NCBI GenBank assembly: GCA_903822005.1
Contig: CAIJNL010000014.1
Location: forward strand, 62,001-126,000
Direction of reading: 5' to 3'
Origin: an uncultured Nitrospiraceae bacterium
Lineage (GTDB): Bacteria; Nitrospirota; Thermodesulfovibrionia; Thermodesulfovibrionales; Dissulfurispiraceae
Length of the DNA: 64,000 bases
Position 1 is the stretch's first letter. Every line of letters starts with the position of its first letter. Under the pieces are notes generated by a model that searched no databases, had not been told where the DNA came from, and worked only from the letters and a program-made list of their open reading frames with translations. Shown piece by piece: positions 10,957 to 56,374 of this stretch. The translations under genes were made by a program, and so were the position numbers.

Positions 10957-11041
10957 AGATACAGGAAAGAAGGCGCGAAAGTTTTTATGTATTGCGTGGA
11001 AAATAGTTTTATAATATCGCGAATCAATGGAGGAGCATGAT

Positions 11042-11773
11042 ATGAAACGCAGAGAGAAAGTAGTAGGTGTTCTTGGCGGCATGGGGCCGGAAGCGACATC
11101 TGATTTTTTTCTCAAGGTCATAAGGGCGACACCCGCAACAACAGATCAGGAGCATCTCCAGATTCTTATCAATAACAACCCGAAAATATTTGACCGCACT
11201 GCTGCGGTCTTCGGCCGTGGACCCAGTCCGCTTCAGATGCTGATAGAAAGCGCCAGGTTACTCGAGGCGGCCGGTGCTGACTTTATCGCCATTCCGTGCG
11301 TTACCGCCCACTATTTTCACGGCCCCCTCCAGAAAGAGATTAAAATTCCTGTCCTGCATATCGCGGAGGAGACTATTAATTATCTGGCAAGGAAATATCC
11401 TGAGGTCAAAACTGTGGGGGTCCTGGCCACTACCGGAACATTAAAAGCCAACATTTTTGAAATCTTCTGCGCAAAATTCAAAATTGCGGTCATTAAACCG
11501 ACGGAAGAGATCCAGACATCAAAAGTTGGTGAAGCTATATTCGGATGCGAAGGCATCAAGACCAAAGGCCCCTGTGACGCTTCCAGAAAACTTATGCGCG
11601 AAGCGGCTCAAACCCTTATCGATCGCGGCGCTCAGGCGATCATCGCAGGCTGTACTGAAGTGCCTCTTGTACTAAAGGATGGGGACCTTTCTGTTCCTGT
11701 ACTCGATACTCTCAGCATCCTTGCCGAAAGCACAGTGGCATTTGCGATGTCAGAAATCGGGGGCGCTAAATAA
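11042..11773 (+). CDS. Aspartate/glutamate racemase family protein
   Basis: The 243-residue protein carries the family start VLGGMGPEAT and two candidate catalytic cysteines, C86 in IPCVTAH and C204 in AGCTEVPL. These enzymes interconvert D- and L-Asp or Glu without cofactor, by two-base chemistry. The usual CNT around the first cysteine is CVT here, which may affect specificity. I start at 11042 because GGAGGAG is 8 bp upstream; the ATG at 11027 contains that SD. Aspartase follows 81 bp downstream on the same strand and an amino-acid symporter after that, so aspartate is the most likely substrate. Confidence 0.82.
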   Translation: MKRREKVVGVLGGMGPEATSDFFLKVIRATPATTDQEHLQILINNNPKIFDRTAAVFGRGPSPLQMLIESARLLEAAGADFIAIPCVTAHYFHGPLQKEIKIPVLHIAEETINYLARKYPEVKTVGVLATTGTLKANIFEIFCAKFKIAVIKPTEEIQTSKVGEAIFGCEGIKTKGPCDASRKLMREAAQTLIDRGAQAIIAGCTEVPLVLKDGDLSVPVLDTLSILAESTVAFAMSEIGGAK

Positions 11774-11854
11774 AAAAAGGAATAAGGGATGCACAGCGCC
11801 GCACGGTTTATGTTTGAATGCAGGATTTCATAAGCCTGAAGAGGAGGTCCACCA

Positions 11855-13342
11855 ATGGCTAAGGTTAAAAAGGACAATGCAGGAGTAAGCGGCCGGCCGG
11901 ATGACAAATCCCCTGCCCAAGAAACCAGGAAGGCCACAAAAGACATGCGGCATGAGCATGATCTGCTGGGCGACATGCTTATCCCTGCCAATTGTTACTA
12001 CGGGATCCAGACCAGACGGGCCAAAGACAATTTCAAGATCACAGGCGTTCCGATTTCACACATACCCGAAATGATACGCGCCCTCGCATGCGTCAAGAAG
12101 GCCGCTGCCCTTGCCAATCTCGACCTTGGGCTTTTGCAGGCAAACATCGCAAAGGCCATAGCAAGTGCCTGTGACGAAATCATGGAGGGCAGACTGCACA
12201 AGGAGTTTGTTGTTGATGTCATCCAGGGAGGCGCCGGCACCTCGACCAACATGAATGCCAATGAAGTCATTGCGAACAGGGCGCTGGAGATACTCGGTCA
12301 TGAAAAGGGCAGATACGATATAATCCATCCGAACAACCATGTCAACTGTTCACAGTCTACCAATGACGTATACCCCACGGCGTTCAGGCTGGCCCTTTAT
12401 GTGAAATTGGGCAGACTCATGGAAGAGATGCGGGTGCTTGAGAACTCTTTTATGGCAAAGGGGGTCGAATTTTCAGACGTCATCAAAATGGGCCGCACGC
12501 AGCTGCAGGATGCGGTCCCGATGACCCTCGGCCAGCAGTTCTCAGCATACGCCACAACGGTCGGTGAAGATATATCCCGCGTACAGGAATCCCAGCAGCT
12601 CATAAAGGAAATCAACCTCGGAGCAACAGCCATAGGGACCGGCATTTGCGCGCCCCAGGGCTATACCCGGATCGTGACTGAAAAACTGAGAAGCATTACC
12701 GGGATACCGGTTGTAACCTCTGCGAATCTGATCGAGGCAACCTGGGACACGGGGGCCTATGTAACGATTTCAGGCGTGCTCAAGCGGATCGCGCTGAAAC
12801 TCTCAAAAATATGCAGCGATCTCAGGTTGCTTTCGTCTGGGCCGAGATGCGGGTTTAACGAAATTAAACTGCCTCCCATGCAGCCAGGATCCTCTATTAT
12901 GCCCGGGAAGGTAAATCCGGTAATTCCGGAGGTCGTCAACCAGATAGCCTTCCAGGTTGTTGGGGCTGACGTCACCGTCAGCTTTGCGGCGGAAGCCGGC
13001 CAGCTTGAGCTTAATGTAATGGAACCGGTCATCGCGTACAATATATTTCAGTCGATCGACATGCTCAAGAGAGGCTGCCGCATACTGGCCGAAAAATGCG
13101 TTGACGGAATAACGGCCAACAAGGAACGCTGTCGTGAACTGGTCGTAAACAGCATAGGGATAGTTACGGCCCTGAACCCTTATATTGGTTATGAGAATTC
13201 AACGGCCATTGCCAAAGAGGCCCTCGAAAAGAACCGTTCTGTTTATGACCTTGTGCTCGAAAGAGGGCTGTTGACAAGGGAGAAGCTGGACGAAATACTA
13301 TCTCCTGAAAACATGGTCTGTCAGGGTAATATAAGGCCTTAG
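11855..13342 (+). CDS. aspA: Aspartate ammonia-lyase (aspartase)
   Basis: The 495-residue protein belongs to the fumarase/aspartase superfamily, which deaminates L-aspartate to fumarate and ammonia. It shows the signature GSSIMPGKVNPV at about 345-356, the GGAGTSTNMNANEV block and the VNCSQSTNDVYPTAFR block. Relative to E. coli aspartase (478 residues, from memory) it has an extra charged N-terminal extension of about 30 residues before HEHDLLGDM. AGGAGG lies before the ATG. Placement after an Asp/Glu racemase and before a dicarboxylate symporter suggests fermentative or respiratory use of aspartate as a fumarate source. Confidence 0.9.
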   Translation: MAKVKKDNAGVSGRPDDKSPAQETRKATKDMRHEHDLLGDMLIPANCYYGIQTRRAKDNFKITGVPISHIPEMIRALACVKKAAALANLDLGLLQANIAKAIASACDEIMEGRLHKEFVVDVIQGGAGTSTNMNANEVIANRALEILGHEKGRYDIIHPNNHVNCSQSTNDVYPTAFRLALYVKLGRLMEEMRVLENSFMAKGVEFSDVIKMGRTQLQDAVPMTLGQQFSAYATTVGEDISRVQESQQLIKEINLGATAIGTGICAPQGYTRIVTEKLRSITGIPVVTSANLIEATWDTGAYVTISGVLKRIALKLSKICSDLRLLSSGPRCGFNEIKLPPMQPGSSIMPGKVNPVIPEVVNQIAFQVVGADVTVSFAAEAGQLELNVMEPVIAYNIFQSIDMLKRGCRILAEKCVDGITANKERCRELVVNSIGIVTALNPYIGYENSTAIAKEALEKNRSVYDLVLERGLLTREKLDEILSPENMVCQGNIRP

Positions 13343-13367
13343 CGGACGGTCAGGTCCAACTTTTGCG

Positions 13368-13389
13368 TGAAACCGGAGGTGCGGTTTCA
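13368..13389 (+). terminator. Hairpin downstream of aspA
   Basis: TGAAACCG and CGGTTTCA form a perfect 8-bp stem with loop GAGGTG, 26 bp after the aspA stop. There is no clear T-run, so termination would be partial. A new promoter follows at 13437. Confidence 0.45.
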
Positions 13390-13436
13390 GTTAATATGAC
13401 TTGCGGGAAGGTCTATTATAACGCGGGCTTGCATAT

Positions 13437-13465
13437 CTGCAAAATGCAATAGAAAATGCTATACT
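13437..13465 (+). promoter_or_regulatory. Promoter of the dicarboxylate/amino-acid symporter
   Basis: CTGCAA (13437-13442) and TATACT (13460-13465) have 17-bp spacing. The leader contains a 7-bp hairpin, AGACCGG/CCGGTCT, at 13492-13510, 34 bp before the gene start. Confidence 0.5.
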
Positions 13466-13544
13466 TTAATCAAAAAAGTATCCGGTTGCAGAGACCGGCT
13501 TGACCGGTCTGTCAACAAAATAATTCATAGGCAGGGAGGGGTTC

Positions 13545-14780
13545 ATGGACGTTGGCACAACTAGTCCGAAAAAGAGCAAGTTTCCTTTATGGCTGCAAAT
13601 TCTTGTGGGTCTGATCGTAGGTATAATTGTAGGATTTATCTGGCCGGAGGTAGGCAAACCGCTTCAGCCGGTAGGCACGGCCTTCATCAAAGCAATCAAG
13701 ATGATAGTCATGCCTCTCGTATTCAGCGCAGTTGTTCTCGGCATTTATAAAATGGGGTCTAACCTTAAGCAACTGGGCAGACTCGGACTTCTTGCTTTTT
13801 TCTGGTTTTATCTTGCCACGGGGTTCTCTGTAGCGCTCGGAATCAGTCTGAATGCAATTTTCCATCCGGCAGCTGGCGTGTCCCTTGCCGCGACAGGCGC
13901 GCTACCGCAGAACCTGGCTACATCCATTGACTGGGTCAAATTCTTCCTCGACATCATCCCGCAGAATATAGTTGATACAGTCGCAAAGCAGCAGATAATC
14001 CCGACGCTGTTCTTCGCTATCTGTTTCGGTCTCAGTCTCGCGGCAATCAAAGAGGCTGGGGAACCGGTAGTAGCAGTGCTGGAAGGAATAATGAAAGCCA
14101 TGTTCGTGCTTACGCAGGGCGTGGTAGCAACGGCCCCGTTTGCAGTTGCTGCTATCATGGCATGGGTCATCGCCACGCAGGGCGCAACTCTGCTGCTCGC
14201 CATGGCCAAGCTTATCGGCGTACTGTATATAGGTCTATTCGTTGTCATGCTTCTCTTCTGGTTAATCCTCTGGATGCTCAAGGAAAATCCTTTCACTACA
14301 ACCAGAAAAGTTATGGAACCGTTGCTGCTGGCGTTCACCACTGCTTCTTCTGAGGTAACGCTGCCGGTACATATGCAGATACTCGAAAAGGCCGGCATTC
14401 CGAACAAAGTAGTTTCGTTCGTCCTGCCTCTGGGATACAGCTTCAACCTGGATGGCGCGGCGCTTTATCAGTCACTGGTCGTATGCTTCCTTGCAGAAGC
14501 CTATGGCCTGCACCTCGATATGGCTTCGATAATTACGATCCTGATCACAACTCTTATTGCCAACAAGGGAACGGCCAACGTCCCTGCTGCATCGCTGGTT
14601 GTTCTGGCGGTCATCCTTACTTCCATCGGCCTGCCTGTAGAGGCGATAGCGATTGTCGCCGGCGTCGACAGGTTTATGGACATGGGCCGCACCACAGTCA
14701 ATGTGTTCGGCAACACGATTGCTGCCATTCTTCTCTACAAGTTTGGCGGAAAGCATCTGGCTGACGAAACATTGGCCTAA
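13545..14780 (+). CDS. Dicarboxylate/amino acid:cation symporter (DAACS/SDF family)
   Basis: The 411-residue membrane protein matches the GltP/DctA/GltPh family, which imports glutamate, aspartate or C4-dicarboxylates with Na+ or H+. Hallmarks are the hairpin motif TASSEVTLPV near residue 265, the substrate/Na+ region FNLDGAALYQ near 300 and NKGTANVPAASLV, followed by GVDRFMDMGRTTVNVFGN. It has its own promoter-like sequence and a strong terminator after it. The neighbours racemase and aspartase suggest D/L-aspartate uptake, but the sequence alone does not separate amino-acid from dicarboxylate carriers. Confidence 0.88.
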   Translation: MDVGTTSPKKSKFPLWLQILVGLIVGIIVGFIWPEVGKPLQPVGTAFIKAIKMIVMPLVFSAVVLGIYKMGSNLKQLGRLGLLAFFWFYLATGFSVALGISLNAIFHPAAGVSLAATGALPQNLATSIDWVKFFLDIIPQNIVDTVAKQQIIPTLFFAICFGLSLAAIKEAGEPVVAVLEGIMKAMFVLTQGVVATAPFAVAAIMAWVIATQGATLLLAMAKLIGVLYIGLFVVMLLFWLILWMLKENPFTTTRKVMEPLLLAFTTASSEVTLPVHMQILEKAGIPNKVVSFVLPLGYSFNLDGAALYQSLVVCFLAEAYGLHLDMASIITILITTLIANKGTANVPAASLVVLAVILTSIGLPVEAIAIVAGVDRFMDMGRTTVNVFGNTIAAILLYKFGGKHLADETLA

Positions 14781-14884: not shown

Positions 14885-15883
14885 CTAATCCCTGAAGGTG
14901 TCCAGATAAGCAAAGAGGGCCTGTGAGCCGCCCGTATGTATAAAGAGCACCTTCTCTCCCTTTTTGAAATAGCCCTTCCTGACAAGATCTATCAGCCCTG
15001 CCATGGCCTTGCCGGTATAAACGGGATCGAGAAGTATACCCTCTGTCCTGGCTAACAGTTTGACAGCCTCAATCATACCTGGGGTCGGAAGCGAATATCC
15101 CGGCCCGACATAATCCGCAAAACAGGTTACCGCGCTTCGCGGTATCTCGCTTTTGACTCCGGCAAGGGCCGCTGTCTTTTGCACCATGCCATATACCAGC
15201 TCTTCCTGCGCCTCTTTTGGACGGCTTACATTGATGCCTGTCACAGGAATGTTGCTGTTGTTTCCGTAAAGTCCGACAACCAGCCCGGTGTGTGTACCTG
15301 AACTGCCGCTGGCAGCAACAACGTGATCAAATGATGTCTGCATTTCGAATGACTGGGACAGCAATTCCTCGGCACAGGCCACATAACCAAGGGCGCCGAG
15401 AGGATTGGATGCGCCTACAGGTATGACATACCCCTTGCGTCCAATAGCAGCGAGCTCATCCGCCTCTTTCTGCATCTCTTCCAGCATGTTGGTCCCGCCC
15501 TTTACGACCCTTGTCTTTTCTACTCCGAGCAGGCCGAAGAGGAAGTTGTTGCCGCTAGCTTCCGGTTTATAGCTGCCGGGGACCCGCTCTTCAAGAATGA
15601 GTCTGCATTGCAGGCCCTCTTTTTTTGCGGCTGCCAGGGTGAGACGGCAGTGGTTGGACTGGACAGCACCGCCCGTGACGAGCGTATCAGCCCCCTGTGC
15701 GAGAGCGTCAGCAACCACAAACTCGAGTTTGCGGAGTTTGTTGCCGCCCCCCGCGAAGCCGAGTATGTCATCCCTCTTGATATATATGGTTGCCCCCCCG
15801 AGTGCGGCGGTAAAACGGGGCATCAGCTCGATAGCTGATCTGCCCTGCAGATAATTTCTTCTGGGAAATCGCGCGAGATTCAT
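14885..15883 (-). CDS. dcyD: D-cysteine desulfhydrase / ACC-deaminase family PLP enzyme
   Basis: The 332-residue protein is a fold-type II PLP enzyme. PLP lysine K49 lies in GGGNKLRKLE, substrate-pocket QSNH follows at about 75-78, and the phosphate loop is ASGSSGTHTG. Family members remove H2S and ammonia from D-cysteine, or deaminate 1-aminocyclopropane-1-carboxylate; some act on 3-chloro-D-alanine or L-cysteate. It is the last gene of a four-gene leftward run (OCD, DSD1, ThrC-like, this gene), each about 35-65 bp apart. That context hints at a D-amino-acid or 3-substituted-aspartate substrate rather than simple cysteine detoxification. The gene symbol names the family only. Confidence 0.75.
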   Translation of the reverse strand: MNLARFPRRNYLQGRSAIELMPRFTAALGGATIYIKRDDILGFAGGGNKLRKLEFVVADALAQGADTLVTGGAVQSNHCRLTLAAAKKEGLQCRLILEERVPGSYKPEASGNNFLFGLLGVEKTRVVKGGTNMLEEMQKEADELAAIGRKGYVIPVGASNPLGALGYVACAEELLSQSFEMQTSFDHVVAASGSSGTHTGLVVGLYGNNSNIPVTGINVSRPKEAQEELVYGMVQKTAALAGVKSEIPRSAVTCFADYVGPGYSLPTPGMIEAVKLLARTEGILLDPVYTGKAMAGLIDLVRKGYFKKGEKVLFIHTGGSQALFAYLDTFRD

Positions 15884-15945
15884 TTATACGTCCTCCTTTA
15901 AATTGGAATGCAGCTTAATTAATACCGGGATTAAAACAGTCGAGG

Positions 15946-17067
15946 CTAACCCTGCAGCATGCCCAGGGCCGCTCCTATCTTGTCTGTTGCCTTCAGCCCA
16001 TGTCCGCTGACAAGGACGACTGTCGTCTCATTTTCCTTAAGATGGCCCTGCCCTGCCAGGCGGCTTATGCCCGCAAAAGTCATCGCTGATGTCGGCTCCA
16101 TATAGTAACCCAGCCGCGCAAGGCGTTTGAGGGCAGGCATTATTTCTTCCTCAGGTACAGCCACTGACGAACCTTCAGAATCGCGCAGGGCGGCGACTAT
16201 CTGCTGCAGCTTCACCGGGTTGGTTAGGGCAACTCCTTCTGCTATCGTTCCCGACCAGACACCAGGTGCCAGTCCCTGCAGAGCGCAATGTATCGGGCTG
16301 CAGTTGGCGGCCTGCACCGCGTAGATGCGTGGAATTGATTCTATCTCGCCCGCCTCAACGAGTTCCGAGAATCCTTTGTATACGCCAAGCACCGAACTTC
16401 CTCCGCCCGCAGGCAGGACAACATTATCCGGTGCCTTCCAGCCAAGCTGCTCCCATATCTCAAAGGCAAGGGTTTTGACGCCCTCGACAAAGAGCGGATG
16501 CCAGTTATGGCTGGCATAAAAGGATTTCCTGCCTGCCTCAATGGCGGCGACAGTGACGTCATCACGCGTGCCGGTAATCTTATTGATCTTCGCCCCATGA
16601 GCCGCGATCTGCACCTGCTTTCCGACTGCGGCATGTGCGGGCACAAAGATATTGCAGCGGATGCCTGCAGCGGCGCAGTAAGTTGCAGCTGCCGCTGCCG
16701 CGTTGCCGGAAGAGTCATCTACTATCTCGGGGACGCCGAGTTTGGCCAGGAAATTAATGAGGATGGAAGCGCCGCGGTCCTTGAATGAACCGCTAGGCAT
16801 AATCGAATCGAGCTTAATATGAATGGTCCTGTTATCCATTTTGACCGGCACGAGAGGGGTGAAGCCTTCTCCGAATCTCGTGGCAGTCTCATCCAGTTTT
16901 ATCGGCAGCGCCTTTTGATAACGCCATAAAGACCGGTCATCCTGCATGACATCCCTGCGCTTCAAAAGTTCCGTGCCTTCGATGCTCAGCACTCCCCCGC
17001 AGTCGCATTGCCAGACCAGATCGGACATCCCGTATTTTTTCTTACAGGCCGTGCAATAGTAATTCAC
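15946..17067 (-). CDS. thrC: Threonine synthase-like PLP enzyme
   Basis: The 373-residue protein has the threonine-synthase layout. A short N-terminal Cys ribbon (C5, C8, C21, C23) leads to the PLP lysine K96 in SGSFKDRGA, a DDSSGNAAAAAATYCAAAG cofactor segment and a C-terminal VVLVSGHGLK. True threonine synthase converts O-phosphohomoserine to threonine. No hom or thrB gene is present here, and the gene sits among enzymes for D- and 3-hydroxy-amino acids. A catabolic beta- or gamma-elimination/replacement role is therefore possible. The family call is firm; the biosynthetic function is uncertain. Confidence 0.75.
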   Translation of the reverse strand: MNYYCTACKKKYGMSDLVWQCDCGGVLSIEGTELLKRRDVMQDDRSLWRYQKALPIKLDETATRFGEGFTPLVPVKMDNRTIHIKLDSIMPSGSFKDRGASILINFLAKLGVPEIVDDSSGNAAAAAATYCAAAGIRCNIFVPAHAAVGKQVQIAAHGAKINKITGTRDDVTVAAIEAGRKSFYASHNWHPLFVEGVKTLAFEIWEQLGWKAPDNVVLPAGGGSSVLGVYKGFSELVEAGEIESIPRIYAVQAANCSPIHCALQGLAPGVWSGTIAEGVALTNPVKLQQIVAALRDSEGSSVAVPEEEIMPALKRLARLGYYMEPTSAMTFAGISRLAGQGHLKENETTVVLVSGHGLKATDKIGAALGMLQG

Positions 17068-17123
17068 AAATATTCCCCCTCTGTTGCTTCAGTAAATATT
17101 ATGACGGCATCGGGACGACCGGC

Positions 17124-18257
17124 TCACCAGCCATGCACCCGCTGCCACACATCAATAACATCATCGGTACGATTTACCACATGGTACCTGTCATGCATGG
17201 TCGCTGTGGCACAGGCATGATTTGGCAGTATGCGGAGCAGGCTCCCTATCGGGAATCTGTTAAAATCCATGGCACCGCCGTCACGCCTGACGATTATGCC
17301 ATGTTCCTGGTTTGTCGAGTCCACAATATAATCAGGTATCGGTGTTCCGTCAACGCTGCAGACTATCCCATACCCCTGGTCTGTCGTCTGCCTTGAGGTA
17401 CCCCGGTCGCGGGACATTGCCATCCAGCCCGCATCGGTAATGACCCATCCTTTTTTCTTCTGATATCCGATCACCGAGGTTAAAACCGAAATCGCCATAT
17501 CTTCGATGGCGCAGACCCCAAGCCCGGCCATGACCAGATCAAAAAACATATATACCCCCGCCCGCACCTCGGTAACTCCTGCAAGGTCTTCTGCGTATGT
17601 TGCGGTTGGAGTAGACCCTACGCTGACGACAGGGCATGGCAGACCCGCCGCGCGAAGCAATTGTGCGCATGCAACCGCAACATCGCGTTCCTGGACAGCG
17701 GCCTTTTTTATCTCATCGATTGCTTTCGCGCCGTAAGATCCGCCCGCATGCGTGAGAACACCCTTAAGTTCAACCCCTTTTGTGTCATGCAGAAAGCGGC
17801 CTATTCCGATCAGTTCAGGATCAGCAGGCGTTAATCCGGACCGGTGGCCGTCGCTGTCGAGCTCAATCAGCACAGGGAATGTCTCATCATGTTTTTTCCC
17901 GTATGTTGCCGCCACCTGTGCCTGTTCCATACTGTCGAGGATGATGGTTATCTCTGCTCCCTCTTTCCTGAGTTTCGCTATGTGGTCCAGTTTGACAGGG
18001 GCTATGCCGACTGCATAAAGAAGATCTTTGATTCCATGGCCGAAATAGTATTCAGCCTCTTTTAAGGTCGAAACCGTTATGCCTCCCGGCTGTCCTTCAA
18101 GGGCGAGTCGTATGACATCAATGCATTTCGCCGTTTTCCCGTGCGGTCGCAGGGGAACACCGAGACGCCCCATATGTTCTCTCATGGTCCGCACGTTTTG
18201 CTCGAGTTTTCCCCTTTCAAGGATAAGGCGGGGCGTTTCAAGTTCGGACAGCTTCAT
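17124..18257 (-). CDS. DSD1-family PLP enzyme, D-threo-3-hydroxyaspartate dehydratase-like
   Basis: The 377-residue protein has the alanine-racemase-type PLP barrel with lysine K41 in RPHGKTAK and a C-terminal metal site H347/C349 in PNHACAT. Motifs such as ITVSTLKEAE, CPVVSVGSTPTA, EVRAGVYMFFDL and AGWMAMSRDRGTSRQ closely resemble, as I remember it, the D-threo-3-hydroxyaspartate dehydratase subgroup. That enzyme yields oxaloacetate and ammonia. Relatives include D-serine dehydratase, D-threonine aldolase and the beta-hydroxyaspartate aldolase of the BHA cycle. The gene starts 35 bp after an iminosuccinate-reductase-like gene and is about 4 kb from aspartase, which fits a hydroxyaspartate substrate. 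Fold and metal site are clear; substrate is inferred. Confidence 0.8.
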   Translation of the reverse strand: MKLSELETPRLILERGKLEQNVRTMREHMGRLGVPLRPHGKTAKCIDVIRLALEGQPGGITVSTLKEAEYYFGHGIKDLLYAVGIAPVKLDHIAKLRKEGAEITIILDSMEQAQVAATYGKKHDETFPVLIELDSDGHRSGLTPADPELIGIGRFLHDTKGVELKGVLTHAGGSYGAKAIDEIKKAAVQERDVAVACAQLLRAAGLPCPVVSVGSTPTATYAEDLAGVTEVRAGVYMFFDLVMAGLGVCAIEDMAISVLTSVIGYQKKKGWVITDAGWMAMSRDRGTSRQTTDQGYGIVCSVDGTPIPDYIVDSTNQEHGIIVRRDGGAMDFNRFPIGSLLRILPNHACATATMHDRYHVVNRTDDVIDVWQRVHGW

Positions 18258-18292
18258 TACTCAACCTCCGTTAAGATTTATGCCTGAGCCGT

Positions 18293-19276
18293 CTACAATG
18301 ATATCCGGCAGCCTTTATTTTTCTTCAGTGCCTCTTCGAGGGCATAGCCCGCTGTTGCCAGGTCTTGTATGGCAACGCCCGTTGTATCAAAGACTGTAAT
18401 CTCATGTTCCGACTGGCGGCCCGGTTTTGTCCCGTTAATAATTTCTCCTATCTCTGCATGAATGGATTCAGCGGTTATGAGACCGGCGTCAAAAGCATGC
18501 TGGCACTCGCCAAGATAGAGGCATTGCTTAAGGTTATCGACAACTATCTTTGCCTTTGGGAATATTTGAGGATCGAGTTCTTTTTTGCCCCGGGTGTCCG
18601 TGCCTATTGCGTTGATATGCGTTCCCGCTTTTACCCATTCAGACATAACAATAGCCTCAAAGCTCGAGGCGGCCGTTATAATGACATCCGCCGCAGCGCA
18701 TGCCTTTTCTGCTGTGGCAAATACGCTGACTGTTTGCGGATAGGCAGATATGTCCTTCGCCAGCGCTTCTGCCGACTCCTGGTGCCTGTCATAAAGATTG
18801 ATTCCTTTAATTCCTGGCAGTATCCTCAACGCCGCCTTAAGCTGGTTCCTGCCCTGCTGACCGGCGCCGATAACAGCCACTATTTTGCTGCCGGGCCTGG
18901 CGAGGTATTTGCAGCCGATAGCGCCTATCGCGGCCGTGCGAATTTGGGTTACGAAATTGGCTGCAACAAAAGCACGGGTCTGCCCTGTCGCCGGATCAAA
19001 AAGGACGATTACCGACTGGTGGTTCGCGAGCCCTTTTATTTTATTGTCCGACCAGAAACCGCCTGCCTTGAATCCAAGCACATCATGGGTCTCGAGATAA
19101 CCGGATTTGATACCGAATATGCCCTTATGCTTTTTGATCTCTTCCCTTACAACCGGAAACGCATGACTTTTCCCCCGGTTATAGTCTCCAAAGACCTGCT
19201 CGATCATACGCAGATTGTCATCAAAGGAGATCAGGTCTTCCACGTCACTGTCGTTCAAAACAATAATTTCGGGCAT
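18293..19276 (-). CDS. Ornithine cyclodeaminase/mu-crystallin family, iminosuccinate reductase (BhcD)-like
   Basis: The 327-residue protein starts at the ATG at 19276, with GGAGG before it; the longer frame overlaps the radical SAM gene. It carries the NAD(P) loop VIGAGQQGRNQ near residue 135. It also has FPVVREE, LGFKAGGFW, NHQSVIVLFDP, GTDTRGKKELDP and LGECQHAFDAGLI. I recall these as features of BhcD iminosuccinate reductase, which makes L-aspartate from iminosuccinate in the beta-hydroxyaspartate cycle. The wider OCD family also contains ornithine cyclodeaminase, alanine dehydrogenase and ketimine reductases. It is the first gene of the four-gene leftward run and precedes the hydroxyaspartate-dehydratase-like gene. 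The subgroup call rests on memory of motifs and needs alignment. Confidence 0.75.
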   Translation of the reverse strand: MPEIIVLNDSDVEDLISFDDNLRMIEQVFGDYNRGKSHAFPVVREEIKKHKGIFGIKSGYLETHDVLGFKAGGFWSDNKIKGLANHQSVIVLFDPATGQTRAFVAANFVTQIRTAAIGAIGCKYLARPGSKIVAVIGAGQQGRNQLKAALRILPGIKGINLYDRHQESAEALAKDISAYPQTVSVFATAEKACAAADVIITAASSFEAIVMSEWVKAGTHINAIGTDTRGKKELDPQIFPKAKIVVDNLKQCLYLGECQHAFDAGLITAESIHAEIGEIINGTKPGRQSEHEITVFDTTGVAIQDLATAGYALEEALKKNKGCRISL

Positions 19277-45935: not shown

Positions 45936-46847
45936 TTATAATTTTGCCCAGGCCTCGTTCAGCACTCTCTTTGCATTCGCAACAACAATATCCGGGTCCT
46001 CATCGCCCCACGGTTTCACCTCAAAGCTGACAATGGGAGGATTCTTTGTGTTCAGGAACCCGATCTCGAGTAATACCTTTAAATACTCGACCAGTTCATC
46101 AACATCATTTTCCCCATTCGGGAACCCGAATCTCGGGTGCGTATCACCATATGCAGCCATTGAAGGGTCTTTTACTACAGCGTTGCCCATGTGAGCATGT
46201 GCTATGTATTTTTTAATCGGCACAAGTGACTGTTTGGATGACTCATGCAGCAGAGGCAGATGACTCAAATCCACCATCAGTCCGAAATTGTCGAATTCTT
46301 TGCAGACATCTTCGGCATATCTTTTTGCGAGGTCGACAGGGCCGATGATTGATTTTTTGTCTATGTCAAAATCGAACACTTCAAGGCAGACCTTTATGCT
46401 GCCTTTCGATTTGGCATAGGCGCAGAGTTCCCTGGTAGATTTCACAAGCGCCTGATAGGACTGCTCTTTGGTCTCTTCAGTATATTTGCCGCTCAGAAAC
46501 GCGAAGCCCTTGGCGCCGATCTCATAGGCCTCGTCAATTCCCTCTTTCAGGGTCGCTATCGCCTTCTGCCTTTCAGCTTCATCCAGATGGTTAATGTTCA
46601 TCCCGGTTGTGAGTAGCCTCGGCTGACCGCCATAGGCAACAGTCATATGGCTGCAGTCAAGCATCTTTTTGACTTCCTGTCTTATTGCCGGGTCCTTGAT
46701 CCAGGTCAGTTCAATCGCGTTGAAATAGCCATCCACCGCTATTTTTTTTACTGTCTCCAGAATCGGGCCTTCGCCCTTTATGGTAGCCGGATATGCCATG
46801 AAGTGGATCAGTCCAACTTTCATATACTTGTACATTGATTCGTTCAT
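45936..46847 (-). CDS. Sugar phosphate isomerase/epimerase family (xylose-isomerase-like TIM barrel)
   Basis: The 303-residue protein fits the AP-endonuclease-2/sugar isomerase TIM-barrel superfamily. It has FNAIELTWI, AKGFAFLSGKY, VCLEVFDFDID, FGLMVDLSHLPLLHES, YIAHAHMGN and VSFEVKPWGDED, with the Glu, Asp/His, His and Glu metal positions expected at the barrel end. Relatives act on hydroxypyruvate, 2-oxo-tetronates, tagatose or myo-inositol intermediates. It is 51 bp after the transketolase gene and ends at a strong terminator, so the two form one operon. The substrate is not readable. Confidence 0.75.
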   Translation of the reverse strand: MNESMYKYMKVGLIHFMAYPATIKGEGPILETVKKIAVDGYFNAIELTWIKDPAIRQEVKKMLDCSHMTVAYGGQPRLLTTGMNINHLDEAERQKAIATLKEGIDEAYEIGAKGFAFLSGKYTEETKEQSYQALVKSTRELCAYAKSKGSIKVCLEVFDFDIDKKSIIGPVDLAKRYAEDVCKEFDNFGLMVDLSHLPLLHESSKQSLVPIKKYIAHAHMGNAVVKDPSMAAYGDTHPRFGFPNGENDVDELVEYLKVLLEIGFLNTKNPPIVSFEVKPWGDEDPDIVVANAKRVLNEAWAKL

Positions 46848-46898
46848 GTCTGTTCCTCCCTATGAAATTAATTATTTTTTTGTCTCTTTTTGCAAAAC

Positions 46899-49256
46899 CT
46901 ATTTTTTGCCCTGCAGATATTTTGTAATAGCTTCGAGCTGATGACTGCCGTCCAGCTTGGCTTCCTGAAGCACCATATGCGACTGCCCGCTTCCAAGGAA
47001 CGCCCCTTGCTTGAATGGATATATAGTCATCTTGCGGCCCCATTCGGAACAGACCCAGCGGTACATGGTCGGCAGAGTGAACCCGGTTATGCCCATGGCT
47101 TCCTTCGCCGCGCTTGCCGGGAAGATCTTCTCTTTTTCGTCATCAGGCAGAGAGTCAAAGAGTTCAGCGCTCGCAACGTAGTACACATCGAGGTCGATCC
47201 CCTTCTGCTTCAGCAGGGGCAAAGTCTCTTCGACAAACGCGTAAGCAACTTCGCTGCCCTGCAGCACTATGGTGCCGTCTTTCTTCTCTCCGGCCGCTTT
47301 CAGAAGATAGACTCCCTTGGCTGCGTCAGTGGCAGGTGCCAGGCCCAGCGCCTTACGGTCAATAATCTTCTCATTCGGCCTTGTAACAAATGGCGCGAGC
47401 ACGGCAAACCTTTTGTTAAAAGCCGCGGTGATCACCGGCCACATCTCCTGGGGGTCCCACGGAGTCAGTGTAGCCATGGTGCCCTTGGGAAAGTTTTCCT
47501 GATAGAGCTGCAGGGGCTGGGGATCAGCATGGGTGGGTCCGTCCTCGCCTGTCTTTACGCCCGCATGGGCGCATACGAGTATCATCTGGCTATAAGGTCC
47601 TTTGGCAATCGCCTGGCGTGCCTGGTTGCCGATCGCATGCAGACGGGCTGCGATATGACCGAGAGGGACTATGAAGGCCGCATATGACGAACCTACCCCT
47701 ATGTGCCTGCCATACGTGGCCATACCGCCGAGGATGCCTGCCATCGCATCTTCGCAAATACCGCCTATCGAGAGAGTGCGCGACTTGGGATTGGTAGTGC
47801 TGTTATAGAAGCCGTCGGGGAAGTCTTTGGCAATCGTGTTAACGCTTGTGGAGCCGAGCAGATCAGCGGATGCCACAAGAAAGGCGCCGTTGCTGGCCTT
47901 GTTATAATACTGCAGCACACGACCCAGTTCACCCCTGAGCGTAGTCACGGTGCCCGGCGCCATTGTCAGCGCTGCCGGAATCGTGGCGGCATCCTTTTCA
48001 GCAGCAACATAAACCTCCTGCAGCTGCGGTCCGTTCTTCCTGGGCTTGAGTTTCTTTTTGGCCAGGCGCTCCCGCGACTGAACAATGCGCCCAGCCAGCA
48101 TCTTTACCAGCTTGGGATTTTCCTCAAGTGCTCCGCGCACTATCATCATGGCGTCCCAGAAACATGATTCAATGACAGAGCCGTCTTTACCACCCTTGCA
48201 AATCTGCTCTGAAGAACACTTTGGCATCCTGGCCTTGCGCTTCTGCATGAAAGGCATCAAAGCCTTGTAAAAACCTTCACTGCAGAGAGGATGTCCTGCC
48301 CCATGGGAACCTCGGCCTTCAATGCCGTACTGCCATCCCTTGACCGTGCGATAGACTATCGCGGTCGGCTGGCTATTCTTGATCTGTGCAAGCTTGCGCT
48401 GGGCCGCGAAGATCTGCTGGAAGTCGGAGCCCTTCGGCACGTAGATCACATTCCAGTCATGCATATACGCAAGCTCCATAGGGGTCCATTGCACATAATC
48501 GCCGGGGCCCTTGCTGTCGCGGCAGACATGGTTACTGTCAATAGATGCCTGGTTCCAGTCAATATGCAATACCGCATTTTTGAGAGAGGCGGTGCCGGCG
48601 GCTGCAAGGGCTTCACTTACGCGACCCGGTGTCAGGCCGCCCTCGCCTTCAACAAGATGCATGTAAGGAGCCTTTTCGCCATAGTAATCGAGCGCGCCAT
48701 AGGCCAGGCCCAGAGAGCTGGCCACGCCCACTCCCGAAGCACCCGTCGAAAGGCGGATGAAAGGTGTGGCCGGGGTCGGATGTCCGTCGAGTGCCTTGGC
48801 ATTATATTTCAGGAAAAGAGGGGTCTTGGTTTCCGGATTGCGCCTGAACCCGAGAAGGTCTTCCAGCCGGAGCTGTTGCTTTTCATCAGAAGGAAGAAGA
48901 TGGGGCGCTCCAATCCGGATGATCTCATTGCGCAGCGCCCACAGAGTGTAAATACCGAGCGCTTTGTGCCCTGCGCCATAGGAGATGATGTCGGCATCCT
49001 GACGGTCGGGATCACTGATGTCATAATCCATTGCATCGAAAAGTATTGCCTGGACAAAGCGGCCGGATGATATTGAACCGCCCGGGTGGCCGGATAGAGG
49101 GACATAGTTAAAGAGCAGAGTGCATAGCGATCTGTAGATCAGGTCGAACGCCTCAAACTGGCGTAAATCCTCGGTAGAAAGCGGTTTGGACTTGCTTTTC
49201 GGCTCTTTGCTGATGTCAATGTACTTTCCTCTTCTCGATCCAAATTCCATTGTCAT
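46899..49256 (-). CDS. Transketolase-family enzyme (single-chain, long form)
   Basis: The 785-residue protein holds both transketolase halves in one chain. The N-terminal TPP part has LSGHPGGSISSG, YGAGHKALGIYTLWALRNE and HLVEGEGGLTPGRVSEALAA. The pyrimidine and C-terminal domains show ICEDAMAGILGGMATYGRHI, THADPQPLQLYQENFPKGTM and ALLCLWGS-like VLQGSEVAYAF. It is longer than ordinary transketolase (about 660, from memory), and the usual GDG of the TPP motif is replaced by EGEGG. It forms an operon with a TIM-barrel isomerase, not with pentose-phosphate genes, so a specialised ketol transfer is likely. The leader at 49338-49506 precedes it. Confidence 0.82.
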   Translation of the reverse strand: MTMEFGSRRGKYIDISKEPKSKSKPLSTEDLRQFEAFDLIYRSLCTLLFNYVPLSGHPGGSISSGRFVQAILFDAMDYDISDPDRQDADIISYGAGHKALGIYTLWALRNEIIRIGAPHLLPSDEKQQLRLEDLLGFRRNPETKTPLFLKYNAKALDGHPTPATPFIRLSTGASGVGVASSLGLAYGALDYYGEKAPYMHLVEGEGGLTPGRVSEALAAAGTASLKNAVLHIDWNQASIDSNHVCRDSKGPGDYVQWTPMELAYMHDWNVIYVPKGSDFQQIFAAQRKLAQIKNSQPTAIVYRTVKGWQYGIEGRGSHGAGHPLCSEGFYKALMPFMQKRKARMPKCSSEQICKGGKDGSVIESCFWDAMMIVRGALEENPKLVKMLAGRIVQSRERLAKKKLKPRKNGPQLQEVYVAAEKDAATIPAALTMAPGTVTTLRGELGRVLQYYNKASNGAFLVASADLLGSTSVNTIAKDFPDGFYNSTTNPKSRTLSIGGICEDAMAGILGGMATYGRHIGVGSSYAAFIVPLGHIAARLHAIGNQARQAIAKGPYSQMILVCAHAGVKTGEDGPTHADPQPLQLYQENFPKGTMATLTPWDPQEMWPVITAAFNKRFAVLAPFVTRPNEKIIDRKALGLAPATDAAKGVYLLKAAGEKKDGTIVLQGSEVAYAFVEETLPLLKQKGIDLDVYYVASAELFDSLPDDEKEKIFPASAAKEAMGITGFTLPTMYRWVCSEWGRKMTIYPFKQGAFLGSGQSHMVLQEAKLDGSHQLEAITKYLQGKK

Positions 49257-49337
49257 AGAGACCTCCTAATGTCTTGCCGGACTGTTCATTCCGGGTACTC
49301 CTTTACTGCCCTTTATCACCCGGGCTTCGGGTACACA

Positions 49338-49506
49338 TAAAAGCCGGACCCTCAAAGGCTTTCCTTCGCCGGCCCGGCTCTCTTATTCAAAAAGTCTCGT
49401 TAACTATCTGCCCCCTCCCAGAAGCCTTCAAGTCAGATCGCATATCATCAGAATAACTCCCTGAAACAGTGCCATTACATTATCATTATATGTTTTTTGC
49501 TGTCAA
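49338..49506 (-). promoter_or_regulatory. Promoter-leader-terminator element B (transketolase operon)
   Basis: On the minus strand TTGACA (49501-49506) and GATAAT (49479-49484) are 16 bp apart. A leader of about 95 nt contains GGCTTCTGGGAGGGGGC. It ends in a long hairpin at 49342-49379 (AGCCGG/CCGGCT outer stem, GAAGG/CCTTT inner stem) with a TTTTAT tail. The transketolase ATG is 85 bp further on. The whole region aligns with 53829-54003. The rest of the gap (49507-49652) shows only a weak hairpin. Confidence 0.75.
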
Positions 49507-49652
49507 TTTGCTTCTGCCTCACATGAATACCGCAAACCACAAAGACAGCGGCTAACGCATCGTTTTTTCTCAACGCATACCCTTAAGTATGGCCCTTTTC
49601 CGCACGACTAATAAAGCCCGGAACCTTAAGTGCTGATAAAAAAATATCTGTC

Positions 49653-50945
49653 CTATTTCCCGCTTAGAGCCATCTGAAGCAGCTGGACCGGATGCATCAC
49701 CCTCATATTCAGGGACGGGTCCAGATGGTTTGAAATGGTCAGTGTGCAGCCAGGACAGCAGGTGGCCAGTATCTGGGCTTTAGTGCTGTGGATATTGTCC
49801 ACCTTGCGCTTCGTAATCTTGCGCGAGGTCTCGGCATGTTCCACCTGGAAAGACCCGCCGCCGCCGCAACAGTCGCCGGCGCCCGGCATCTCCACATATT
49901 CAACGCCCGGGATGGCCTTCAGTATGTTCCTCGGCTGGGCAGTGATCTTCTGCCCCTGAACAAGATGGCAGGGATCATGATAGGTGACCCTGACCTTCTT
50001 TCCATTTTCTTTCATCGCAGGCAGCCAGTCCTTGTGCTCGTCTATAAAGACGGTAACGTCCTTGACCTTTTTGGCCAGTAATTCCGCGGCCTTCAGCTCT
50101 TCGTCCGTAACATCTTCGCCCAGCTGGCGCAGATCGAGCAGCAGATGGGGATACTCTTTTTTGAGCCCGTCACTGCAGGTCGCGCAGTCGCAGACAACTG
50201 CATCTATGTCCTCTCGGGCAAAGAGCCTGAGATTCTCGCGGATATTCTGAATGGACGCTTCACGGTCTCCGGACATGAATATGGGCATGCCGCAACAGGT
50301 CTGTTCCCTGGGAGTGATCACCTCAACTCCCATCTTCTTGAGTACGTCCACGACAGCCGTGCCTATGCCTGCATAGAGGTAATTGGTCGCACAGCCGTGG
50401 AAATAGAGTACCTTTGCCCTGGCCTTTCCCTCTGGCTTCGTCACCTCGGGGACCATATCGGAAAACTCTTTTTCATTTACCTTGGGGATTCGCGCCACAT
50501 TGAGGGCCCCGGCATTCATCCTGGACTCGATCCATTTCCCTCCAAACATCTTCCGCGCCCATTTGCCGAGCGATGCAGATTTTGACATCCTCCATTTTTT
50601 GGCCAAAAGCTGGAACATGACCTTCTTTTTCCAGTCCATACCATATTTCTGCACGGCCCGCCAGCGGACCCCTGAGTAGAGATTGCTTCCATGGACCCCG
50701 CTGGGGCAGTTTGAGACACAGGCGCCGCAGAGCAGGCAGGTGGAGAAAAAGGCGTTCTTGACCTCTTTGGACATCTTGAGATTGCCTTCTGAGAGCTGTC
50801 GGGAAAGCTGGACCTTGCCTCTCGGCGTCGCCTCTTCCGACAGGACTTCCTTGTAAACAGGGCAATGAGCCATGCACAGACCGCACTTGATGCAGTGATA
50901 AATATTCTCTTTCGTATTTTCACTGAATACCGCTTTTTCTTTCAT
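49653..50945 (-). CDS. glcF: Glycolate oxidase-type iron-sulfur subunit (GlcF-like)
   Basis: The 430-residue protein has two [4Fe-4S] ferredoxin motifs, CIKCGLCMAHCP (C18, C21, C24, C28) and CLLCGACVSNCP (C70, C73, C76, C80). Two CCG domains follow (HGCATNYLYAGIG...TCCGMP and DPCHLVQGQ...GDCCGGGGSF). This is the electron-transfer subunit of glycolate/D-lactate-type dehydrogenases and relates to heterodisulfide-reductase-like modules. It is the last of three genes after GlcD and the GlcE-like subunit. Electrons probably go to quinone or another membrane acceptor. Confidence 0.88.
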   Translation of the reverse strand: MKEKAVFSENTKENIYHCIKCGLCMAHCPVYKEVLSEEATPRGKVQLSRQLSEGNLKMSKEVKNAFFSTCLLCGACVSNCPSGVHGSNLYSGVRWRAVQKYGMDWKKKVMFQLLAKKWRMSKSASLGKWARKMFGGKWIESRMNAGALNVARIPKVNEKEFSDMVPEVTKPEGKARAKVLYFHGCATNYLYAGIGTAVVDVLKKMGVEVITPREQTCCGMPIFMSGDREASIQNIRENLRLFAREDIDAVVCDCATCSDGLKKEYPHLLLDLRQLGEDVTDEELKAAELLAKKVKDVTVFIDEHKDWLPAMKENGKKVRVTYHDPCHLVQGQKITAQPRNILKAIPGVEYVEMPGAGDCCGGGGSFQVEHAETSRKITKRKVDNIHSTKAQILATCCPGCTLTISNHLDPSLNMRVMHPVQLLQMALSGK

Positions 50946-51000
50946 AATCTACCCCTTTATAGACTGCTGCTCGGCCGGCAGGCCTCCCCGCAGCTTATTC

Positions 51001-52353
51001 TTAAATGCCTCCCACAAACCGGCCGGGATTAAGAATACCCGCCGGGTCCATTTTTTCCTTAAGGCGGCGCATCAGGATCTGATCATGTCTCGGCTGTCCC
51101 CAGACGCTGATCTTTTCCTTCATCTCAGGCGGACATGACTCCACAACAAGATTCCCCTCATCTTTCACTGCTTCCAGGGTGAGTTTGCCGATGAGCTCAA
51201 TGAGCCCTTTCAGCTTTGCGCCTGCGCCGGGCTTATCAAGGATATAGGTATGGAGTATGCCGTTGCCGGCGTGGCAAATGAAGGCAGCGCGAACCCCGGC
51301 AGCTTCCGTTATTTTTTCGCACCTTGCCATAAGTTCAACATGCTTTGATATGACAAAATTAGATTTCAGGATGACCGGAGAGCCGTATTTCTTTGCCAAA
51401 TCGCTTCCCAGGTCGCGAACACGGACCCAGAAGGCCTTCTCTTTTGTACCCTTAAGGACTTTAACTCCTTTGGCCCCTTCTTTTTTTGAAGACTCGCTGA
51501 TTTCGGTAATCTGCCGGGCCACCGCCTCAACCACTCCCTCGAGACTTAACGCCAGAAGGTATTTGGACTTTTCGCCCAGACGGTCTGCGGCCGCGCCGTT
51601 GATCAACTCGACAGCAGAGGGCAGAAGGCTTGAATGTATAATCTTGCGGATATACTTTCCGGCAGCTTCCAGGTCACCAAAAGAGAGCAGCAGAGTGGCC
51701 GAAGCCTCAGGAAGAGGCAGGAGTTTCGTAGTAATCTCGGTGATAATACCCAGTCCGCCCCAGGTACCTATCATCAGTTTCGTCATATCGTATCCGGAGA
51801 CGTTTTTCATCGTCTTGCCGCCGAAAGAGACTATGTCTCCGTCGGGTGAAACAGCCTTGATACCGAGGAGCATGTCCCGGGCGGTTCCGTAAATGTAGCG
51901 CTTCGGCCCACTCGAATTAGTTGCGACAATGCCGCCGATAGTCGCTTTCTCGGTAAAAGGCGGGTCAAGCGGCAAAAAGTTTCCTTTACGGCCTGCGCCC
52001 AGTTTCTTTTGCAAAGCGGCCAGGGTGATGCCTGCCTGCACAGACAGGCTTAGATTGGCCTTGTCGTAATCAACAACCCGGTTTAGCTTCGACAGGGAAA
52101 GCACCAGGTCCACTTTACGGGGAATACCGCCAGCGGCCATCTTGGTGCCGCTGCCGCGTGGTACAACCGTCATTTTGTTTGCATTTGCGATTGCCATGAC
52201 CTTTGAAATCTCTTTTTCATTCTTTGGACAGACTATAGCCTTCGGCACCAGGCCGTCCACGGCGCAGTCCTTGAGTTTTTTCGGCCCCTGAATCACATTG
52301 GCTTTTCCGACTATCTTCTGCAGGGCGGAAACTAACTGATCTTTTTGGGGCAT
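51001..52353 (-). CDS. FAD-linked oxidase subunit (GlcE/GlcD-like)
   Basis: The 450-residue protein starts at 52353 (GGGAG upstream), leaving 22 bp after GlcD. It belongs to the PCMH-type FAD enzymes: VVPRGSGTKMAAGG, DKANLSVQAGITLAALQKKL, GGIVATNSSGPKRYIYGTAR and the C-terminal HAGNGILHTYI with ILNPGRFVG. It is longer than classic GlcE (about 350) and keeps the full C-terminal cap, so it may be a second catalytic subunit rather than a bare GlcE. It forms a unit with GlcD and GlcF that oxidises a 2-hydroxy acid. Confidence 0.82.
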   Translation of the reverse strand: MPQKDQLVSALQKIVGKANVIQGPKKLKDCAVDGLVPKAIVCPKNEKEISKVMAIANANKMTVVPRGSGTKMAAGGIPRKVDLVLSLSKLNRVVDYDKANLSLSVQAGITLAALQKKLGAGRKGNFLPLDPPFTEKATIGGIVATNSSGPKRYIYGTARDMLLGIKAVSPDGDIVSFGGKTMKNVSGYDMTKLMIGTWGGLGIITEITTKLLPLPEASATLLLSFGDLEAAGKYIRKIIHSSLLPSAVELINGAAADRLGEKSKYLLALSLEGVVEAVARQITEISESSKKEGAKGVKVLKGTKEKAFWVRVRDLGSDLAKKYGSPVILKSNFVISKHVELMARCEKITEAAGVRAAFICHAGNGILHTYILDKPGAGAKLKGLIELIGKLTLEAVKDEGNLVVESCPPEMKEKISVWGQPRHDQILMRRLKEKMDPAGILNPGRFVGGI

Positions 52354-52375
52354 ATCCAGTCTCCCTTTAGCAATA

Positions 52376-53770
52376 TTATGCAGTCTTCTGAAGTTCAGGC
52401 AGCACTTTGCCGGGATTGTAGGTTCCGTCCGGATCAAAGGCCACTTTAACATTTCTCATGGAAGCTAGATCCTGGCTGCTGCAGATGAGCTGCATGCCGT
52501 GGATTTTTTCGACACCGATTCCATGCTCTCCGCTGATAGTCCCTCCCATGTCAGCGCAGACTTTCAGGATCTCGTTAGCTGCTGCATGGACCCGTTTCAG
52601 TTCATCCGCGTCCCTCTCATCAAACAGTATCAACGGATGAAGGTTGCCGTCTCCGGCATGGAACACATTGGCGATAGGAAGGTTATATTTCTTTCCGATG
52701 GCGATAACTTTTGCGAGCGTTTCAGGCAGTTTGGTCCTGGGCACTGTTCCGTCATTTACCATATAATTGGGACGCAGCCTGCCAACGGCCCCGAAAGCGC
52801 CCTTGCGCCCGGCCCATATCTTGTCACGTTCCGCCTGGTCCTTGGCAACCCGGATCTCACGCACATGGTGCTTCTTGCAGATATCGAGGATGCGATTGGT
52901 CAGCCGTTCCATGCCGTCACTCAGTCCATCAAGTTCAATGATCAGGATTGCGGCCGCGTCTTTGGGCAGGCCCATATTATATGCCTCTTCAACCGCCTTG
53001 ATCGTAAGATTGTCCATCATTTCGAGCGTAGCCGGAATAATACCGTCGGCAATAATTGCTGATACCGTATCGCCGCCCTCTTCGATCGAATTGAAAATGC
53101 ACATCATGGTTTTTACAGCCTCTGCCTTCGGCATAATCCGGAGGATCGCTTTCGTCATGATGCCAAGGGTCCCCTCAGAGCCCACAAAAACACCGGACAG
53201 GTCATACCCGGGGTTGTCCAGCGCCTTGCCCCCGATCTGGACCACTTCACCATTGTAAAGGACCAGCTCACCACCCAGGACATGATTGCTCGTGACCCCA
53301 TATTTCAGGCAGTGGGGACCTCCTGAGTTCTCGCCGATATTCCCTCCAAGTGTCGAGGCCTTTTCGCTTGCAGGATCGGGTTGATAGAGGTAGCCATGTT
53401 TTGCAAGAAAATTTTTCAGGTTCAGCGTTATCACCCCGGGCTGCACCACAACACGCTGATTTTCGATGTCCAGCTCCAGGATATTGTTCATCCTGGTCAG
53501 CACTATTGCAATGCCGCCCTGAAGGCTGATGCTGCCGCCGCTCAGATTTGTTCCTGCACCGCGCGCGATTACGCGAATACCGTTGTCATGCGCAAACTTC
53601 ACTACTTTTGAGACCTGTTCGGTGGAGGTGGGAAGTACGATGCAGTCCGGTTTTGAACGGATCAGGGAAGCGTCGTACTCGTACAGCTGGATTTGCATGT
53701 CCGTACCGAGCACACTCTCTTTGCCGATCAGCCGGTTCAGCTCTTTGACCATCTTCTCTTTTTCCATCAT
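52376..53770 (-). CDS. glcD: Glycolate/D-lactate dehydrogenase catalytic FAD subunit (GlcD-like)
   Basis: The 464-residue protein has the VAO/PCMH FAD signature VIARGAGTNLSGGS and NQRVVVQPGVITLNLKNFL. The cap domain has the substrate region NVFHAGDGNLHPLILFDERD and EHGIGVEKI near the end, ending AFDPDGTYNPGKVLP. Family members oxidise glycolate, D-lactate or D-2-hydroxyglutarate. GGAG lies 3 or 6 bp before two tandem ATG codons (53770, 53767), the second being better spaced. It is the first gene of the glc unit and is preceded by leader element A. Confidence 0.88.
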   Translation of the reverse strand: MMEKEKMVKELNRLIGKESVLGTDMQIQLYEYDASLIRSKPDCIVLPTSTEQVSKVVKFAHDNGIRVIARGAGTNLSGGSISLQGGIAIVLTRMNNILELDIENQRVVVQPGVITLNLKNFLAKHGYLYQPDPASEKASTLGGNIGENSGGPHCLKYGVTSNHVLGGELVLYNGEVVQIGGKALDNPGYDLSGVFVGSEGTLGIMTKAILRIMPKAEAVKTMMCIFNSIEEGGDTVSAIIADGIIPATLEMMDNLTIKAVEEAYNMGLPKDAAAILIIELDGLSDGMERLTNRILDICKKHHVREIRVAKDQAERDKIWAGRKGAFGAVGRLRPNYMVNDGTVPRTKLPETLAKVIAIGKKYNLPIANVFHAGDGNLHPLILFDERDADELKRVHAAANEILKVCADMGGTISGEHGIGVEKIHGMQLICSSQDLASMRNVKVAFDPDGTYNPGKVLPELQKTA

Positions 53771-53828
53771 GGGCTCCTTATTGATGCCGTCTTTTTTTTG
53801 ATTCTCAGCTGATAATGACCTTACCTTC

Positions 53829-54003
53829 CAAAAAAAACAAAGGCCGGACCTTCAAAGGTTTCCCTTATCCGGCCCGGCCTCTTCATTCAAAAAGGTTCGT
53901 AATAATCCGTCCCCCTCCAGAAGCATCAAGTCGCAGCGAAATCATCAATCACTCTATGTCTTACGGTAGCACTAAATTAGCATTATCCCTTTTTCGCTGT
54001 CAA
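53829..54003 (-). promoter_or_regulatory. Promoter-leader-terminator element A (glc operon)
   Basis: On the minus strand TTGACA (53998-54003) and GCTAAT (53976-53981) are 16 bp apart. The leader contains TGCTTCTGGAGGGGGAC. It ends in a terminator at 53841-53880: outer stem AGGCCGG/CCGGCCT, inner AAGG-GAAA-CCTT with a GNRA loop, then a TTTGTTTTTTTT tail. The glcD start is only 60 bp beyond, so read-through must be regulated. It aligns over about 165 bp with element B at 49338-49506. Confidence 0.8.
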
Positions 54004-54038
54004 TGGGTGATATTGCAATTAATCAGGAATAAATAAGA

Positions 54039-56353: not shown

Positions 56354-56374
56354 ATCAGATTGACTCCATTTCAT

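Follow-up and report, generated by a model that had tools for sequence, protein, structure and literature searches.

A gene island in a dsr-bearing Dissulfurispiraceae genome that may combine catabolism of cysteate and 3-hydroxyaspartate

In a 64,000-nucleotide stretch of contig CAIJNL010000014.1 from an uncultured Nitrospiraceae bacterium (the window; GTDB family Dissulfurispiraceae), four minus-strand genes lie at positions 14885–19276 in the order OCD, DSD1, ThrSL and CuyA-like, where ThrSL is our name for a threonine-synthase-like protein. On the plus strand, genes for a racemase, an aspartase and a DAACS carrier (11027–14780) converge on this run (Table 1). A preliminary description of the window had placed the four-gene run at exactly these coordinates, reported all three facing genes, and named the families correctly at the superfamily level: OCD, DSD1, two pyridoxal-phosphate (PLP) enzymes of fold type II, Asp/Glu racemase, aspartase and DAACS. 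Since the intergenic gaps are only 35, 56 and 62 bp, the four genes are likely an operon, and a ribosome-binding site precedes each start. The OCD gene starts at 19276 behind a clear Shine-Dalgarno sequence (GGAGGAAATTAAATATG); a longer open reading frame (ORF) to 19456 runs into the upstream gene. Reading by eye revealed a G+C-rich, hairpin-like sequence between the converging DAACS and CuyA-like genes.

Table 1. Genes of the island, with window positions and the evidence for each assignment
Predicted product	Position	Strand	Evidence
CuyB-like cysteate racemase (Asp/Glu racemase family)	11027..11773	+	NF052483 232 bits, cut-off 190
AspA aspartate ammonia-lyase	11855..13342	+	TIGR00839 731 bits, cut-off 681
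DAACS-family acidic amino acid/dicarboxylate carrier, probable importer	13545..14780	+	PF00375 385 bits
CuyA-like D-cysteate sulfo-lyase (PLP fold type II)	14885..15883	-	NF052482 517 bits, cut-off 450
ThrSL, PLP fold type II, predicted beta-eliminating lyase/dehydratase	15946..17067	-	under all threonine synthase cut-offs
DSD1-family metal/PLP dehydratase, D-threo-3-hydroxyaspartate dehydratase clade	17124..18257	-	PDB 3wqc 1e-120; tree; H-x-C
OCD-family imine reductase, BhcD-like, predicted iminosuccinate reductase	18293..19276	-	NF045643 317 bits, cut-off 500; clade; motifs

The OCD-family protein had been likened to the iminosuccinate reductase BhcD, and our phylogenies, although built from small samples for both OCD and DSD1, agree with that assignment. 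It grouped with BhcD (support 97/100), also after two long-branch rows were removed and one was added (98/99). Inside this larger group, the window protein and four relatives (54–69% identical) formed a group of their own (100/99). Archaeal alanine dehydrogenase, pyrroline-2-carboxylate reductase (P2CR), mu-crystallin and EutC fell outside the BhcD group, as did the ornithine cyclodeaminases of the first tree, which sat on very long branches. The grouping with ornithine or alanine enzymes that would have spoken against the preliminary description was therefore not seen. In agreement, the motifs FPVVRE, KAGGFW, NHQS, GTDTRGKKELDP and GECQHA are common to the window OCD and BhcD-type proteins and not to the others, and alanine dehydrogenase motifs are not present. 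We label the protein BhcD-like rather than BhcD because its score is under the BhcD cut-off.

The DSD1 protein, previously likened to D-threo-3-hydroxyaspartate dehydratase, was placed inside the clade of that enzyme (100/98) and not in the D-serine branch. BhcC and the D-threonine aldolases formed a separate clade (100/98, or 100/100 with one further row). Its metal-ligand motif, NHACAT, is of the dehydratase type (H-x-C), whereas aldolases have H-x-D, and the same two metal-ligand residues are those altered in His and Cys variants deposited for the solved enzyme. The solved enzyme from Delftia sp. HT23 (PDB 3wqc) thus has the same clade and metal ligands in common with the window protein; the difference lies in the operon of the window DSD1, which also encodes an imine reductase and a CuyA. 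The Delftia dehydratase acts on D-threo- and L-erythro-hydroxyaspartate (PMC8071972).

Pairing of these two families recurs across genomes that are not related to one another. In four genomes (G401, G403, G405 and G508), a DSD1-family gene lies directly beside an OCD gene of the window clade; these DSD1 proteins are ∼30% identical to that of the window and form their own clade, also with H-x-C. On alphaproteobacterial plasmids of Alloyangia and Novosphingobium RL4, a window-type DSD1 adjoins another OCD, a long-branch member of that same BhcD group. In Novosphingobium RL4 there is also a third gene, whose best match, under its cut-off, is threo-3-hydroxy-L-aspartate ammonia-lyase. As dissimilar DSD1 and OCD subfamilies are paired, a PLP dehydratase and an OCD imine reductase appear to have been united more than once. 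BhcB–BhcD and EutB–EutC follow the same logic of a PLP dehydratase with an OCD-family protein. The EutB–EutC pair of hydroxyectoine utilisation removes a beta-hydroxyl group, and differs from the window pair in its OCD clade, its fold type II dehydratase and its substrate. Together, the grouping of the OCD protein with BhcD, the position of DSD1 and the recurring pairs make hydroxyaspartate salvage plausible. The suggestion of a D-hydroxyaspartate salvage path in the preliminary description stands to that extent, with the substrates still predictions.

Conservation of gene order gave a divided answer: the exact order of the window was found nowhere else, but the sub-blocks DSD1–OCD and CuyA–CuyB–DAACS–ThrSL recur. 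Several neighbours of the DSD1–OCD pairs were also recorded. In two genomes (L083, 3319–8225; L072, 3–6824), the pair lies near a TctCBA-type transporter, LeuC/LeuD-like genes (aconitase family) and a gene of the isocitrate/isopropylmalate-dehydrogenase type, putatively a dicarboxylate pathway. In G405 (L081, 11252–13955), an MmgE/PrpD-family gene and a second look-alike gene follow the pair. A short ORF at L036 (825–1208) starts like a late part of DSD1 and continues as the C-terminal part of an OCD, and is a deletion or assembly joint.

The earlier view that all of these genes centre on aspartate, its D-form and its 3-hydroxy derivative overlooked the main identity, a pair of cysteate enzymes. 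The last gene of the run and the facing racemase both pass equivalog cut-offs, for D-cysteate sulfo-lyase (CuyA) and cysteate racemase (CuyB), respectively, whereas D-cysteine desulfhydrase equivalog models scored the CuyA-like protein under their own cut-offs. CuyB supplies D-cysteate to CuyA, which yields pyruvate, ammonia and sulfite (PMC11382572). The window CuyA is 62–67% identical to CuyA of G401, G402, G508 and Deinococcus deserti (67% for the last, where the next gene encodes a CuyB relative). G508 has a single run of CuyA, CuyB, a DAACS carrier and ThrSL, preceded by a YheO-type regulator. In G402, CuyA is next to a DSD1 gene that belongs to the OCD-linked clade; the OCD gene is elsewhere, and no CuyB lies at that locus. 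The known CuyA/CuyB desulfonation of Ruegeria pomeroyi offers a close comparison: the window CuyA shares 48% identity with its R. pomeroyi counterpart and passes the same cut-off, the window CuyB passes its own, and a carrier lies alongside. The window carrier is of the DAACS type, however, whereas R. pomeroyi has TRAP genes nearby, and the window CuyA shares its operon with DSD1, OCD and ThrSL in a genome that bears Dsr. R. pomeroyi also carries bhcABCD and cuyA ∼15 kb apart on one megaplasmid (L085, L094). At L068 (11158–12390), a 411-residue protein with no Pfam or NCBIfam match adjoins CuyA and a TRAP-type transporter.

The island was likely acquired horizontally, although its base composition does not stand out (GC 50–55% vs about 52%). 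None of the 40 nearest relatives has a CuyA of full length, and the closest OCD proteins belong to metagenome-assembled genomes of Negativicutes and Peptococcaceae. In the search for a conserved order of all four genes, 396 genomes of its own phylum gave no further OCD match at a strict threshold, and the CuyA search gave one further relative, 34% identical. A scan of 84,980 species with OCD patterns found three close relatives; the patterns demand exact matches, so that relatives can escape, as those of G405 and G508 did.

ThrSL is probably not a threonine synthase, since the genome holds a separate ThrC over cut-off and an arginine of the synthase motif is replaced. We rejected that identity, as ThrSL scores under the threonine synthase models (266/301 bits score/cut-off; TIGR00260, 146/167) and the motif RxEGQKT reads LFVEGVKT, with F in place of R. 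In threonine synthase, this arginine contributes to binding the phosphate group of phosphohomoserine; five relatives of ThrSL likewise carry a replacement at this position. Cysteate synthase was also considered, and no such model was among the 25 best matches listed. The likeliest role of ThrSL is that of a beta-eliminating lyase with L-cysteate or L-threo/D-erythro-3-hydroxyaspartate as candidate substrates. Enzymes of fold type II that bear the family name threo-3-hydroxy-L-aspartate ammonia-lyase would accordingly take the L-threo isomer. D-erythro-hydroxyaspartate is removed by serine racemase and by an enzyme from Pseudomonas (PMC8071972). A Selenomonas relative of ThrSL adjoins RidA and a YheO-type regulator, and in Rhizobium tropici, the neighbours of ThrSL are an asparaginase, an ABC transporter and an OCD that carries most of the BhcD-type motifs of the window OCD. 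In four genomes (L114, L115, L043 and L035), YheO-type regulators with PAS_6/HTH_22 lie by ThrSL or by DAACS/RidA-like genes.

The same genome encodes sulfite reduction on another contig, which the preliminary description likewise did not include. DsrA (545/393 bits) and DsrB (463/342 bits) are over their cut-offs, as are DsrC, DsrK, DsrM, DsrO and DsrP. This block of dsrAB, dsrMK, dsrO, dsrP and dsrC (L111, contig C30) has siroheme-synthesis-like genes nearby, and the organism is probably a sulfite reducer. With DsrABC and DsrMKOP in one genome, cysteate could supply its respiratory sulfite. Organosulfonate respiration in Bilophila and Taurinivorans likewise places a sulfonate lyase and Dsr within one genome, but there the substrates are taurine or isethionate, and here the predicted substrate is cysteate. 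Taurinivorans muris has cuyA and dsr, yet did not grow with cysteate (PMC10507020), and gene content by itself is therefore no proof of cysteate use.

On balance, we favour the reading that the island combines two catabolic modules for aspartate analogues, one for cysteate and one for 3-hydroxyaspartate. In the first, the DAACS carrier would import L-cysteate, CuyB would convert it to D-cysteate, and CuyA would cleave this to pyruvate, ammonium and sulfite; the sulfite may then serve as a respiratory acceptor, reduced by DsrAB with DsrC and DsrMKOP. In the second, DSD1 would dehydrate D-threo- and L-erythro-3-hydroxyaspartate to iminosuccinate, and ThrSL perhaps does the same with the L-threo and D-erythro isomers, so that the two enzymes could cover all four. 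The BhcD-like OCD protein would reduce iminosuccinate with NAD(P)H to L-aspartate, which AspA would convert to fumarate and ammonium. The substrates of both modules are chemically alike and probably share one carrier. Several points weigh against this arrangement. The OCD protein falls short of the BhcD cut-off, the DSD1 and ThrSL families have changing specificity, and the exact seven-gene layout was met once, in the window only. Moreover, of the six genomes that carry an OCD of this clade, four have CuyA over cut-off (the window's own, G401, G402 and G508), and in G402 it adjoins DSD1; module 2 might therefore serve cysteate too.

Taken further, those same observations would place all seven genes in a single cysteate pathway, with the OCD protein as a cysteate dehydrogenase or sulfopyruvate-imine reductase and DSD1 and ThrSL as further cysteate lyases or racemases. 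Cysteate is itself an aspartate analogue, the four CuyA-bearing genomes of the OCD clade compare with the one 34% relative in the phylum, the CuyA of G402 has DSD1 beside it and no CuyB at that locus, and ThrSL stands within the CuyA run of G508. We nevertheless regard a cysteate-only function as unlikely: G405, whose DSD1–OCD pair lies on a 3.8 Mb contig, has no CuyA, and G403 has only a 40% CuyA fragment. The plasmid DSD1–OCD pairs and the BhcB/BhcC–BhcD clusters also had no CuyA in the stretches read, and the residues that the OCD protein has in common with BhcD fit a carboxylate imine.

Generic clearance of D-amino acids, in which CuyA would be a D-cysteine desulfhydrase, aspartate and D-serine would be the substrates of the racemase and of DSD1, respectively, and the OCD protein would reduce pyruvate imine, seems quite improbable. 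CuyA can use D-cysteine (PMC10507020), its nearest solved relative carries the name D-cysteine desulfhydrase, and the DSD1 family takes in D-serine dehydratase. These points are outweighed by the equivalog results, which place CuyA and CuyB over their cut-offs and D-cysteine desulfhydrase under its own, by the position of DSD1 in the 3-hydroxyaspartate branch, and by an OCD protein without alanine dehydrogenase motifs.

A variant beta-hydroxyaspartate cycle assimilating glyoxylate, as the preliminary description had proposed, is already contradicted and can hardly hold: the OCD protein groups with BhcD and is paired with a PLP dehydratase, and DSD1 belongs to the same superfamily as BhcC, but a dehydratase with H-x-C ligands (133 bits against the BhcC cut-off of 690) occupies the place of the aldolase, and the best BhcB match at the locus, ThrSL, reaches 50 of the 550 bits needed. 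All of BhcA, BhcB, BhcC (the aldolase) and BhcD are required for the cycle (PMC11166783), and true plasmid-borne clusters carry bhcA-bhcB-bhcC-bhcD side by side. No BhcA was among the genes identified in or near the run, a genome-wide search for it not having been made. Without BhcB, aldolase or a BhcA in view, no carbon–carbon bond formation is expected. Of the GlcD/E/F set proposed as a source of glyoxylate, GlcD/GlcF-like genes do exist in the window (49.6–53.8 kb), but none reaches a GlcD/E/F cut-off, and they lie 30 kb away in another context. That region (45939–56374) holds transketolase-like, GlcD/GlcD/GlcF-like, and paired PdxA2-like and D-threonate-kinase-like genes, and is probably a four-carbon acid sugar catabolic locus.

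Returning to the two-module reading, we tentatively propose a broader pattern, a recurrent and so far undescribed salvage module. Its core would be a fold type III dehydratase, either alone or joined by a fold type II enzyme, and a BhcD-like imine reductase; they would turn the stereoisomers of 3-hydroxyaspartate, perhaps all four of them, into L-aspartate with no need for an aldolase. In this island, a shared carrier and aspartase would couple the module to the respiration of cysteate. If true, iminosuccinate reductases would gain a role in anaerobes and beyond the beta-hydroxyaspartate cycle, and a function could be offered for unnamed DSD1–OCD gene pairs. Cysteate would then also be a likely source of sulfite for Dsr-bearing bacteria beyond the known gut and marine cases.

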